Both the position numbers and the translations under genes were made by a program. A DNA stretch of 64,000 bases, from the NCBI GenBank assembly GCA_032622095.1, contig CP136066.1:7401784-7465783 (forward strand). The letters are read 5' to 3'. Below the pieces are notes generated by a model. That model was not told the DNA's origin. It made no database searches and was given only the letters and a program-made list of their open reading frames with translations. This document shows positions 56,647-63,490 of the stretch, in pieces (within the stretch, counting starts at the first letter, position 1; the number at the start of each line of letters is the position of its first letter). Source of the stretch: Siphonodentalium dalli (Eukaryota; Mollusca; Scaphopoda; Gadilida; Siphonodentaliidae).

Positions 56647-57300
56647 TATGTACCAAGGCCAATTTGCCGTTTACCACTTATATTGAAATGACAAGGGCTT
56701 GCAGTAGCCATCATTCATATCATACAGGCTTAGCAGAAATCCAGAGTTATTAGTATAGAGAGATACGACGCTAAACCGGTAATTACCTCCACCGATGCCT
56801 GCGAGGACCGAATCACTGGGTCTCTAATGAAATTGCATTGGAACACTCTACCTACATTATTAAAACGATGGTTAAGTTTCAATTAACAGCAGGAATGACA
56901 TCATTTCACTTTTATAAGATTGAGGAAACATAGCACTGTGTTCTTATCAGTTCAGATAATTAAAAATGTGTGTGGCTCTGGTGAATAATGCCGATAAGAT
57001 AAGACTTATGACCGGAATTGGTGGAAAATATGTGTGGGTTGTAAGCAAGCATATCAACTATGGTGGCATATATATTACTTCCGAAACACAAGAAAGGTCT
57101 ACTTTATCTGTTTTTCGTATGTGATATATCTGAGAAACTATAGGGGAATAATTAAAATGCCTCCCATATAGAGGAAATCCATGGGCAGAATTGTGTGGTA
57201 AACCGCTCTCTGATAATTTTGTGTTAATTAATAGAGAAAACAACTATATTACCACAAAGTAACATTCAGAATGATATATCTGTAAATTTAATTGTGCGGA
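56647..57300. other. Non-coding DNA before LINE-C
   Basis: No gene recognised; part of the right end may be the 5' untranslated leader of LINE-C, whose true start is not marked. Confidence 0.4.
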
Positions 57301-57331
57301 AGTCGACTGAGCAAGAAACAAAGGTGACGAG

Positions 57332-59546
57332 ATGGCTGATTCTAATCATATTACGGATGAAGTAGATAATATGGGGAGTCACGATGAAGAGGATACCGGG
57401 AGTTTGGATAAAAGAGAAGAGGAAATAAGAGACTATTCGTTGGTAGTAGGGAGACTAAATGCAAGAAAAAATGAAGGAATGGCGAAAGATATTCATGCTA
57501 TTGAATCTAAAAATGGAGGTAAGTGTGTTACAATCACACTAGACACTGACAAGTTTGATAACTATGTACAAGGCATTTCTGACAAATATTGGGACCCCAT
57601 TTCACACGTGGAGAAGGGAGGCGTGATTTGGAAATGTATATACGATAGATCTGAAGTAAAACGTTTAGTTGAAGACCAACTTTCAATTCCAAGGACGAAG
57701 TCTACGAGAGTTAAAATGCATATCTTTAGAACGACCAATAAGCTAATGATTCAAGAATCAAAATTGGTGTAGAATGGTGGATAGAGCACCACTTACCAGA
57801 CATTTACGAAAGAGCGTTTGGACAGTCAGTTGGTCTAGATGTTAAAACCTTATACAATGAAATGCTGTCACAGACATGTGTCAAAGAAGTGGTACCAGTA
57901 TCAAGTACGCCATGCCCTCGACGGGATACCTATGATTCCAGAAAAATATTCTTCTCAACTCCCAAAAGGAAAGTAAATGTGCGTGTAGGGAGATCGTTGG
58001 TTCATGTACTTCCGTCAGCTGCAGCCGGTTCGAAATTTTTAGCTGCTACTACTCTGAAGATGTCGGTTGATGATTTGAGCGTATGTATCGAAGAAATGCA
58101 GTTAACACAGAAAGAAAGTGTTAATCACGTCGATCAATCAATGTATGATCTGCGGACTCAAATACAAAATATGATCAAAGTTCATGTGCAACACATAAAT
58201 TCGAAAATGGAGGAGTTGGAACGCGAAAATACTGCCCTGAAAGTGGAGACGAATAAGACACGGAAGGACTTGCATAATAGATTGGATGAAGTCAAGAAAG
58301 AGCAATTAACAATTAAAAATGAAAATAGGAAGCTTAGGAATGACCTCACACTTCTAAAGTCAACGATGAAAGATATCGAAGAATCTGAAATATCTAAACA
58401 ACAGGATAAACAACAAGAGATCTCCAAAACTGATGCTACATTTCAATGTGAATATGTCTTTCAGAACAATACAAGTTCGCAAGAAGACCGTGTTCCTGTC
58501 AGCTCAACTGACACAAATGATATTCTTGTTAGCCAAACTGACACAAATGATGATCGTGTGAGCCATATGTTCCACATACCCTCTTCTGATGTTCTGTAAG
58601 GGTTATGATCACACAACCATCCCAAATTCATGATACGTCTGAAAATTCCTGGAAACGTGCGCGAAAACTGAAAACATATCGACGAGATCATCGCAGGGAT
58701 GACACTCGGTTGCCGCTACATTTAATAGTGTGTGATTCGGTTTTAGGTGGAATCGATCCTCGGAGAATGGAAACACGGGATGAGCGGGTTACAACAGTCG
58801 TCACGCCTGGTCAGCGCATTGATGAGTTAAATGAATAGCTGTCAGGTGATTTACCTTTTGAAAATGTCGGTAAAATAACTGATCACGTCGGAGTGAATTC
58901 CTGCAGAAATGGGATTGTGACAACGGACGAAGACTTGCGTGTACTAGCAACAACACTGGGCGAACGTTTTAGTGCGGCGGAGATAAGAATCTCTTCAATA
59001 TTACCAACGCTTCACTCAGAGCATGTGCATAGTTTGATCTATGATACCAATTGCAACTACATGAAAATGTGCCGTGATAATGGTTTCATTTATATTAAGA
59101 ATGAGCATGGATTCATGTCACAGAGGGAAGGTAGAGTGGATGCTGCATTGTACAGAGACAACTGGCATCCGAACAAGACAGGTGCGAGTGTTCTGGCAAA
59201 AAGAATCAAATATGCTCGGGATGACTTTTTACAAACGGTGGACAAACACGATGCAGTGAAGGATGGTTCATTCTTCGAAAGGGAAACTGAACACCGGGAC
59301 AGACGATATAAGAGGCAAGAAAGTAGGTACCAGCGGGAAAATTCTTATCCATCTGGCGTCGAACGGGTTAACAATAACTCGGGGAATAACAGTGATGTTT
59401 ATTCCAATGGTGACCACATATATCATAAATTGTCCAATGAGAACAGAAACCATTCCGCAATTCGGGGAAATGATGAGCTTTCTTTTTGTCGGCATCAGCT
59501 AACAGAAATTTTGCGTTATATAAATACAAGGTACATGCGCAATTGA
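57332..59546 (+). pseudogene. LINE-C ORF1 (N-terminal gag-like part, coiled coil, SGNH esterase), broken
   Basis: The ORF1 protein binds element RNA, and the esterase may act on lipids or membranes. The first part (57332-57772) contains VKMHIFRTTNKLMIQES, a motif typical of invertebrate LINE ORF1s. A one-base loss in the A-run at about 57757 moves the frame, which continues (IGVEWWIEHHLPDIYERAFG) through 57862-58599. Residues from 58060 to 58420 form a strongly charged coiled coil. A second -1 shift near 58595 leads to the esterase. Block I is LIVCDSVLGGI (catalytic Ser in C-D-S rather than G-D-S) and the Gly/Asn block is HVGVNSC. Block V is DNWHPNKTG with the Asp-His pair. A TAG at 58836 interrupts this domain. 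The tail after 59260 is charged and Asn-rich. Total about 737 codons. Confidence 0.85.
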
Positions 59547-59862
59547 AGTCTTGCTTCGATAATCATTAATGCACTTGTTGTCAAAGTTTGTTTCTGGAAA
59601 TCTGTATAGTATATAATTATATATATATGTATTTTTATTCCAATTGCTAATATTGTATAGCAAATATCAGAAATTGTATTTATGTTAAGTTAACCAATAT
59701 GACATACTATATTTGACTGTATGACATATTTTTTTTCGAAAACAAAATCCTTAAGATCTGTTAGACACGTGAACTACTAGTATACATGCCTTTCAGCTTT
59801 GTTTCTTGCTCCTGGACGTCGACTGTCCGCCAATGAACTAATTATAACTTATTGATTTTATA

Positions 59863-62800
59863 ATGATTCGAGAACAAGAGTGTGTTATATCCACGCATAG
59901 GCGTAGAGTGGCTCTTACGTCATGGAACGCACAAGGATTTGCGAACAAATATCAAAATACCGAATGCTTGGAACATTTGTGTAAATATGACTTTATTACA
60001 ATTTGTGAGACTTGGCACAAAGATGCATCAGATATACAAATAACAGGATACCGATGTATTGAAAACAGACCGAAATCTGATTCTATTAAAGGAGGGGTTG
60101 CATTTTATTGTCGTACAGAGTACGAGAAATGGATTGAGAAAATACATCACCTAGATAATTATATTATATCTGTTGAATTTAATGGTGGATTATTCAATTT
60201 ACAATCCAAAATTGTTTTCATATCAGCTTACATTCCGCCCATTAACTCTTCAAGCTGGAAGACAATGGAGGAAAAAGAAAGAATATTCTCTTCTCTTAAG
60301 TAAACTGTTGTTGTTGAATAAATATGGGTTAAATGACATGATTATTTTAAGTGGAGACTTCAATGCGCGCACTGGGAAAATGCCAGACTATGTTACAGAT
60401 GATAATGACAGATATGTTCCATTACCCGAAAACTATATAATTGATACCATATGTCCCCGCGAAAATTTGGACGGACAAATCAACTCATTCGGTAGACAAC
60501 TTATATCACTTTGCAAATCTTCATCTTTGCGCATTGTAAATGGAAGGACAACCGGTGACCTTCTCGGAAACTTTACTAGTTACCAATATAATGGTTGTAG
60601 TGTCGTTGACTATATTCTAATGTCTGAAAGATATCACTCAGATATTACCTATTTTTGTGTCAAATCATCGAACGAGTATTCAGATCAAAGTCAACTAGCT
60701 TTGCATATGGAATATACTCCTAAAAATGCACGCGAACAACAAACTAAATTCACTTACGCTAAACTTCAACATTCTTTGAAATGGACCCCAGAAAGTTCTT
60801 ACAAAGCTGAAACAGCTCTGGATACTAGGGAAATTCATAATAAGCTAATGCAATTTAGATTAGGTACCTACGAAAACAATGAAAATGGAACTGAGAACGC
60901 GATTGAAAAATTCTCATCAATTTTGACTGACATAAACGGGAAAGCATCGAAACGGATTAATTGTCACAAAACACACCAGAAGAAGAAAAATAGATGGTTT
61001 GATAACAAAAGCAAAACCCTCAAAAATGACATGAAAACCATTGCATATGCTGTGAAAAAAAATCCATATGACAAATTATTGGTAAGCAATTTTCATGCAG
61101 CAAAAAAAGCCTATAAAAGAGAAATAAAACATAAACGCAAGTTGTTTCACCAATCGTTACAAGATGAATTAACTTCTCTGGAAACTTGTGACCCGAGTGA
61201 ATATTGGAACATTATTAAAAATATAAGAGCGATCAAGCAATCTGGCTATGATAGCCTCAACCCCGACTCTGCTGTCGAGTTTTTCAACGGACTATATTGT
61301 CGTGAAAATACTGATACAACAGTTTATACTTTGAGAACAGATAAGCCATTGATTGCGAATAAACTTAATAATGAAAAAATAACACAAAGCGAAATTATCG
61401 CTGCTCTGCGAGAAATTAAGAATAATAAATCTCCCGGCATAGATGGTATAAGAAATGAATTACTTAAAACAGTAGTTCATATTATTATTGAAGATGTCAC
61501 ACGTCTCTCCAATATTGTACTTAAGTCTTCTCATTATCCAAGAAAATGGAGCGAATCAATACTGAAACCAATTTACAAAAAAGGCGATAGGAGTGACCCC
61601 AATAATTACCGAGCGATTGCTCTGAGTATTTCAGTAGGAAAATTATATAACAAAATTATAAATAAGAGAATAATGAAATTCTTAGAAGAAAATAATCTGA
61701 TAAGTGAAAACCAATTTGGTTTTCGAAAAAACAAGAGCACAATAGATAGTGCTTTCATTTTGAAAACATTAATCGCTACGTACCAAAAACAAACAAAACC
61801 ACTCTACGCAGCGTTCATAGATTTCCGTAAAGCATTTGACTCCATAGATAGGGAAATAATTTTCCAAAAAGTTAACCGCATTGGGATTACTGGTAACCTC
61901 TTACACACATTAAAGTCCATGTACAATTCGAGTTATTATATGACGCGGACACGGGATGGGGTGGGACCTAAACAATTATCAAATATTGGAGTAAGGCAGG
62001 GATATACTGTGTCTCCCACACTATTTAATATTTTTATAGATGACATATCGGAAATTTTTGATCAGTCATGCTCGCCTGTGAATATTGGGAACACCGCCAT
62101 CAATCATCTTCTTTTTGCCGATGACCTTATCTTATTATCTGACTCACAGGACGGCTTACAAACCTGCCTGAATAATTTACAAGTATATGTAAATAACAAC
62201 AACCTTGCAATTAATACTGAAAAAAGTAAATGCATGGTATTTCGAAAAAGTAAAAACTCTAAAATTTCCCTCGTTCAAGATTGGCAATCTTCCCATTGCA
62301 CTTGTTGATGAGTACACATATTTAGGCATTAGATTCTGTGCTACTGGGTCATTGAGAAAAGCACAAAATTAAGTAAGCAACAAGGGCATGAAGGCACTCT
62401 ATTCGCTTGTTATGTCACTACAACAACACGATATATTCTCAATTAATTTGTGGATCAAACTGTATGATAAACTCATTAAACCCATTACACTATATGGTTG
62501 CGAAATATGGGCCTCTGATATCAACCTCAACAATATAGATACTGCACCATGTGATCGTCTCATCTCAATTTTTGCAAACGAGCACTTGGAGTAAACAGGA
62601 AAGCATCAAATCACGCGGTACGTGCTGAGCTTGGTAGATACCCCGTTGCTTATGAAGCATTATCTCGTGCTACTAAATATGCCTTAAAAATATTGACTGC
62701 AGAAAAACATTCCCTCGTTCATAAATCAGCCACAATGTCCGATGACCGCATAATCCCAAATAAGTGGTCCTTTAAATTTGACATTCCAAAACTCACGGAA

Positions 62801-63355
62801 ATTATTGATAAAACTGTTCAGTATTTGAAGAAAATTAAACACACTATTTGTGATAGTTTCAAGGTTGACCATGTGTCGTGTTTCAGAAGAGATATATATA
62901 ACGATGAAAAACCATCAGGTAAGAACAAATTGAGGATGTATAGAGAAATAATAAGTGATTACCGATTGGAGCCATATTTGGACATAGTAAAAAATATCGA
63001 AGTAAGAAAGATCTTCAGCAAATTTCGGATTAGCAATCATACTCTAGAAATTGAAAAAGGGCGCCATAAACAACCGAAGATTCCTGTAGACAAGAGAATA
63101 TGCAGAAAGTGTGGATTGGAAACGGAAACCGAGGAACATTTTATTTTAATATGTCCTATTTACAAAACCATTCGTCTCCGTTTCTTTGACGAAATAGATA
63201 AAGTAAATCACAAGTTTATTAATATGACTGATGCCCAAAAATTCATTTTCATACTGCGAAATGACAAAACAGAAACGTACAATATCATCTGTAACATGGT
63301 CCGTCTCTTTTTCCACAAAAGGTCTGAAACACCAGATTTTCAACAACAAACATGA
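59863..63355 (+). pseudogene. LINE-C ORF2 (endonuclease, reverse transcriptase, CCHC), broken
   Basis: The polyprotein performs target-primed reverse transcription. Endonuclease: ALTSWNAQGF and ICETWH near 59910-60015, AYIPP near 60230, GDFNARTG near 60355. A frameshift at about 60295 separates the N-terminal 146 codons from the long frame to 62308. Reverse transcriptase: KSPGIDGI (61430), NNYRAIALS (61600), FGFRKNKST (61720), AFIDFRKAFDSID (61813), GVRQGYTVSPTLFN (61990), FADDLILLSD (62114). After a further shift near 62275 come VDEYTYLGIRF, a TAA at about 62370, then WIKLYDKLIKPITLYGCEIW. Another shift near 62585 precedes VNRKASNHAVRAELGRYPVA. The C-terminus (62693-63355) includes ICRKCG...EEHFILICP, the CCHC-type finger of CR1/L2-like ORF2s. 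The catalytic FADD is intact, so decay is recent. Confidence 0.92.
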
Positions 63356-63465
63356 CATTTTTTCCATTTTAATTCTGATTACAATTGTGTATATATTGTG
63401 TATATACATATATATATTTATTGTTATTTATGTTGTGACATCGGCCCCGTGTGCGTGTAAATGTC

Positions 63466-63488
63466 AATAAACTTATCTTATCTTATCT
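63466..63488 (+). terminator. LINE-C poly(A) signal and pentamer tail
   Basis: AATAAA at 63466 is followed at once by ACTTATCTTATCTTATCT, a short pentamer repeat. LINEs of the L2/CR1 kind typically end in such a microsatellite instead of poly(A). Confidence 0.75.
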
Positions 63489-63490
63489 AA

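Follow-up and report, generated by a model that had tools for sequence, protein, structure and literature searches.

To our knowledge, the translation of ORF2 from bicistronic LINE mRNAs has been worked out for few elements only (SART1 and L1). As cited in PMC5972666, the silkworm LINE SART1 couples the translation of its two ORFs through UAAUG (Kojima et al. 2005), a mechanism that needs an overlapping stop-start and an RNA structure 3' of the overlap, and mammalian LINE-1 reaches ORF2 by an unconventional form of termination-reinitiation (Alisch et al. 2006). The L1 spacer is 63 nt long and was reported to be dispensable for L1 retrotransposition (PMC2881922). Our search, which covered open-access literature, found no report of a leader-spacer duplex comparable to the one described below in a LINE and no description of one for L1. 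A different configuration is known from the ribosome shunts of plant pararetroviruses (CaMV 35S leader, RTBV) and of RTSV, with a 5'-proximal short uORF that stops a few nt before a stable helix, and with a UA-rich sequence for landing ahead of the next ORF; in the RTBV/RTSV type the uORF has 6-7 codons, and 7-8 nt separate its end from the stem. In these viruses the helix forms locally, as a stem-loop within the leader, and the ribosomes skip no long coding ORF (PMC5902531).

The LINE analysed here lies in a 64,000-nucleotide stretch of the Siphonodentalium dalli genome (the window). It shares with the viral shunts the 5'-proximal short uORF, a (predicted) stable helix and the UA-rich sequence before the next ORF, but ~2.5 kb separate the two strands of its helix, ORF1 itself (~2.2 kb) forms the loop, the host is a LINE and the spacings, that from the uORF stop to the helix among them, are looser. 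Like SART1 (PMC5972666), the element is proposed to use an RNA structure for ORF2 translation of a bicistronic mRNA; however, its ORFs are 316 nt apart, with no overlapping stop-start (ORF1 stop 59544-59546, ORF2 AUG 59863), and it is the leader and the spacer that its structure connects. With L1, as summarised in the same source, it has in common two ORFs separated by a spacer and an ORF2 start that would be reached non-canonically. The SART1 UAAUG coupling and L1 termination-reinitiation, as described there, do not fit the anatomy of this LINE.

Results

The LINE element in the window

The element is a two-ORF AP-endonuclease non-LTR retrotransposon (LINE) with the following parts:

57198-57331, + strand: 5' leader, lacking ~33 nt at the 5' end compared with other copies (family 5' end GACGTAATGACGCTGCGTCGGACGG)
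57271-57285, + strand: uORF of 4 codons, ATG ATA TAT CTG TAA, its stop 2-5 nt 5' of arm A
57288-57327, + strand: arm A of the long-range duplex (putative take-off side), adjoining the ORF1 AUG on its 5' side
57332-59546, + strand: ORF1, within the looped-out part, its frame broken by a frameshift and a stop in the window copy
59547-59862, + strand: inter-ORF spacer, 316 nt, with 7 AUGs, none of them 3' of arm B
59793-59838, + strand: arm B of the duplex, complementary to arm A
59839-59862, + strand: putative landing zone, AU-rich and AUG-free, filling the interval from arm B to the start of ORF2
59863-63355, + strand: ORF2, with AP-type endonuclease, RVT_1 and a weak zinc-binding C-terminal match, frameshifted in the window copy
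63356-63490, + strand: 3' UTR, terminating in AATAAACTTATCTTATCTTATC

Frameshifts and stops have left the window copy dead; ORF1 is one ~746-codon frame in another copy and contains a coiled-coil-like part and a weak C-terminal GDSL-esterase-like match. The ORF2 reverse transcriptase domain was detected as RVT_1 (E 3e-39), and the N-terminal AP-type endonuclease as Exo_endo_phos (E 1e-4, just below the Pfam cut-off in the window fragment); this endonuclease aligns with many intact frames across the genome. We take the element to resemble the CR1/L2-like group, two-ORF AP-endonuclease LINEs with an esterase-like ORF1, with which it would share the AP-type endonuclease, RVT_1, the coiled-coil-like part and the weak GDSL match. 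Copies are dispersed in the genome and truncated to varying extents. In the other copies of the window's family (F1) the leader starts with GACGTAATGACGCTGCGTCGG, and the uORF varies as ATG(A/G)TATATCT(A/C/G)TAA.

Just 5' of the element, GATAAGATAAGACTTATGAC (56993-57012) is an inverted match to the TTATC repeats of the element's 3' tail (63463-63482), and is possibly the tail of a separate, oppositely oriented insertion.

A predicted duplex between leader and spacer

The original prediction described an inverted match between the segments preceding ORF1 and ORF2, and its coordinates were exact. The leader side consists of AGTCGAC (57301-57307), T (57308) and GAGCAAGAAACAAAG (57309-57323), and the spacer side of CTTTGTTTCTTGCTC (59797-59811), CTGGAC (59812-59817) and GTCGACT (59818-59824). 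The complementarity exceeds that description, extending over ~40 nt (leader 57288-57327, spacer 59793-59838), and the extended leader arm reads TTAATTGTGCGGA-AGTCGAC-T----GAGCAAGAAACAAAGGTGA against the reverse complement of spacer positions 59793-59837. The local alignment score was 45, compared with a maximum of 42 and a 99th percentile of 30 among 5000 dinucleotide shuffles (p 0.0005 for the window arms with 2000 shuffles and smaller windows). Within the whole 6.3-kb element the best complement of arm A is arm B (45; runner-up 18). The arms alone are predicted to form a duplex of -48 kcal/mol, and when the 2763 nt of RNA between the leader and the ORF2 start are folded without constraints, it is present with core pair probability near 1; unconstrained folding of three further copies (L004, L006, L008) also yields the duplex. 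The predicted fold of the window copy thereby includes a stable helix of the kind that CaMV/RTBV-type shunts have.

The genome holds at least 22 leader-bearing and at least 34 spacer-bearing F1 copies, and those keeping both segments have both arms. Small spacer or leader deletions in some of them are subfamily differences that spare the arms. The CTGGAC bulge is mostly absent from the older spacer variants L047, L048 and L050, where the pairing is more even. One pair is G-C in young copies (leader GAGCAAG, spacer CTTGCTC) and has an A-U version in older or sister copies (leader GAACAAG in L052 and L069; spacer CTTGTT in L047, L048, L075 and L077), both arms of which never occur together in one old copy. 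In the nearest sister family, L075-L077/L079 are 5'-truncated or interrupted, with arm B in L075 and L077 and no paired arm A.

Rearranged copies were also seen. The leaders of L003 and L005 have a common 44-nt deletion between GATAATTTT and ATTCAGA, 5' of the uORF. L007 (G000:C4:243959851-243960766) carries the first ~260 nt of the element plus upstream flank in tandem, two times. An 86%-identical subfamily has five nearly identical copies within a 1.4-Mb span (G000:C8:142.8-144.2 Mb, L018-L020); all five have identical deletions, arm B included, and they look like a segmentally duplicated dead copy.

Complementarity in other LINE families

Relatives were located by protein searches of the same genome with the ORF1 N-terminus and the endonuclease. 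For twelve families (F1 and eleven others, one or two copies per family, all from one genome) we scored ~250 nt 5' of ORF1 and ~200 nt 5' of ORF2 symmetrically in fixed windows. RNAduplex over whole leader and spacer segments gave gapped helices extending everywhere and was dropped as uninformative; a GU-rewarding alignment score, too permissive to separate real from shuffled sequences, was also dropped.

Leader-spacer complementarity was detected in 12/12 of these families. Shuffle p per family ranged from 0.0005 to 0.048, k3 being marginal (p 0.048), and Fisher's combined value was 2e-17 for twelve families that are not fully independent because of common descent within one genome, several with shared arm ancestry. 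The arm sequences are family-specific and several are unrelated (F1 GAGCAAGAAACAAAG, F2 CTGGACTTCGGGGATAGTC, F3 GGATCACCGGAGACA, b GGTCATCGGAGA, k3 GGCGACTGGAGAGGAT, k7 GGTGGCCACTGGATTAAT, k8 ACCGAGGTCAGAA, k9 TGACGCGGACTTGGATG). When partners were swapped among families, the observed sum was reached in 0/20000 cases. Nine further loci were fetched after the predictions had been written down; three represented new families (N2, N5, N12), in all of which pairing, uORF and landing zone were as predicted, which brings the complementarity to 15 families. The other six re-sampled known families, and N6 and N7 were not significant (p 0.52 and 0.21); N4, N6 and N9 had uORF or arm damage, as decayed copies would be expected to have. 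The shuffles, the partner swapping and the recurrence in further families uphold the earlier claim that the match is unlikely by chance, and a chance match was rejected.

Arm A lies on or shortly 5' of the ORF1 AUG in most families, and in k9 the best arm B is found ~270 nt 5' of ORF2. In place of ORF1, a k9-group LINE (G000:C8:171069502) has a 2005-codon open frame that may fuse ORF1 with ORF2, in which case no second initiation would be needed. Most families also have a 5' leader motif, ~GACGTAAT..GCGACG..GGNNGCAACNGNAAATTYGCTCYSNG, 5' of the uORF (e.g. L087, L089, L091, L095, L107, L117; F1 L002-L007), kept where the arms differ and perhaps an internal promoter or another leader element.

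The uORF and the putative landing zone

A uORF of 1-6 codons is present just 5' of arm A in 15/15 families (12/12 first-sampled, 3/3 new). In all 12 first-sampled families it ends within a range of -3 to 26 nt ahead of arm A, against 2.2 expected from shuffled leaders (P 4e-10), with window and distance limits that were set after inspection of the first families and fixed for the three later ones. The distance from stop to arm A is 2-26 nt, varying with the family and with the arm edge drawn, compared with 7-8 nt in RTBV/RTSV. The uORF peptides differ among families (MIYL, MGNF, MEIY, MNSTR, MATY etc.), suggesting that position, rather than product, matters.

The sequence that separates arm B from the start codon of ORF2 (11-112 nt, varying by family) is AU-rich, with a GC fraction of 0-0.38; pooled for 14 families it amounts to 488 nt, with a single AUG. 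By shuffling, 5.3 would be expected (p 0.006), and 15.7 at the rate of the spacer 5' of arm B (0.032 per nt); family d has one small AUG within the zone. Such an AUG-depleted, AU-rich zone suggests that ribosomes arrive just 3' of arm B and scan to ORF2, rather than coming from the ORF1 stop. Leaky scanning is unlikely in view of the 71 AUGs within ORF1 and the 7 in the spacer of the window copy.

Covariation of the arms

Covariation was analysed in an ungapped alignment of the 14-bp core common to eight related families, in which 95.9% of cells pair. Changes on both sides were detected at 5/14 core pairs (e.g. G-C to A-U and U-A to C-G in F3). Seven cells changed on both sides against 2.6 expected from shuffles (0/500), and the signal was lost (0-1 cells) when the partner was slid by 1-3 columns. 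Transition mismatches inside the matches were of the wobble type (leader G/spacer U or leader U/spacer G) in 16 cases and A·C in one (p 2.7e-4); the constraint therefore acts on the sense RNA, not on the DNA.

The comparison of copies and families, proposed earlier as a check on the pairing, yielded compensatory changes. Complementarity lost without compensation would have spoken against the pairing; it is lost in some decayed copies and kept, with compensation, by the families. Judged from these substitution patterns, pairing in the sense transcript is under selection, and its conservation across families is close to certain.

Discussion

The position of the uORF, the putative landing zone and the site of arm A resemble the CaMV/RTBV/RTSV configuration, and we therefore propose a ribosome shunt across ORF1. 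In the full-length LINE mRNA, arm A, 5' of the ORF1 AUG, would pair with arm B, 5' of the ORF2 AUG, and ORF1 would be looped out. Cap-loaded 40S subunits would scan the short leader and translate the tiny uORF, whose stop is at the foot of the duplex. Some post-termination 40S subunits may leave the duplex unmelted, pass from one side of its base to the other, enter the AU-rich, AUG-free sequence 3' of arm B and initiate at the next AUG, that of ORF2. Ribosomes that melt arm A would get to the ORF1 AUG, so that the duplex would set the ORF1/ORF2 ratio. By analogy with the viral systems, we infer that the uORF is translated, that ribosomes shunt and that ORF2 is the product, and we put the probability of shunting as the mechanism for ORF2 translation at roughly 65%. 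The original prediction had offered the pairing as a possible route for ORF2 translation; its pairing half is borne out by compensatory changes, wobble-only imperfections and family-specific partners in 15 families, and its translation half is suggested by anatomy (the uORF and the AUG-free, AU-rich landing zone).

The duplex could instead be a conserved RNA switch with another purpose, hiding the ORF1 AUG to turn translation off and tagging the transcript for assembly into RNPs or for reverse transcription, or else joining two RNAs in trans, with ORF2 translated via an IRES or reinitiation. Pairing and covariation fit this reading equally well, and in F2, F4, k3 and k9 arm A extends up to or over the ORF1 AUG. 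We nevertheless consider it unlikely: neither the tiny uORF at the duplex foot in all 15 families nor the AUG-free, AU-rich stretch directly 3' of arm B would be expected from a switch.

In a further reading, ribosomes terminate on ORF1 and then reinitiate on ORF2, in the manner of SART1 or mammalian L1, and the duplex merely aids the crossing of the spacer; in its favour, such ORF2 mechanisms are reported for LINEs (PMC5972666, PMC2881922). The window LINE lacks the stop-start overlap, its 316-nt spacer has 7 AUGs, ribosomes that scan onwards from the end of ORF1 would encounter numerous AUGs at the density found 5' of arm B, and arm A, 5' of ORF1, is left with no role; this makes reinitiation distinctly improbable.

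Complementary intron ends can promote splicing, and the pairing might join a 5' splice site in the leader to a 3' site in the spacer, ORF1 being the removed intron. Pyrimidine-AG stretches do occur near arm B in some spacers, but a common donor or acceptor across families was not seen by eye. Spliced ORF2 RNA should sometimes retrotranspose, yet in 0/22 leader-bearing F1 copies checked was the leader joined to the spacer (distances ~2.3 kb or more); judged from these genomic copies, excision of ORF1 by splicing is very improbable.

An inverted repeat or inversion/template-switch copy at the DNA level, kept alike by conversion and without RNA function, is equally improbable: the similarity between the F2 arms spans ~85 nt with indels, as such a repeat might, but the alternative in the original prediction that the match records an inversion implies A·C mismatches as frequent as G·U, against the 16:1 excess still pairing in sense RNA, and leaves unexplained both the in-step changes at separate positions and the constraints on uORF and landing zone.

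Taken together, the ribosome shunt that we favour may explain how LINEs make their second protein. It is built on a specific RNA element that covariation backs and that was located to exact coordinates in many families, and simple compensatory-mutation reporters make the question of ORF2 translation testable. It seems reasonably probable that a whole group of animal-type LINEs shunts across the complete ORF1 for ORF2, by means of a uORF and a long-range leader-spacer duplex that coevolves in each family and would act as an ORF1/ORF2 switch. If true, transposable elements would join the systems that use ribosome shunting, and the process would come to include the kilobase-scale bypass of a coding ORF.
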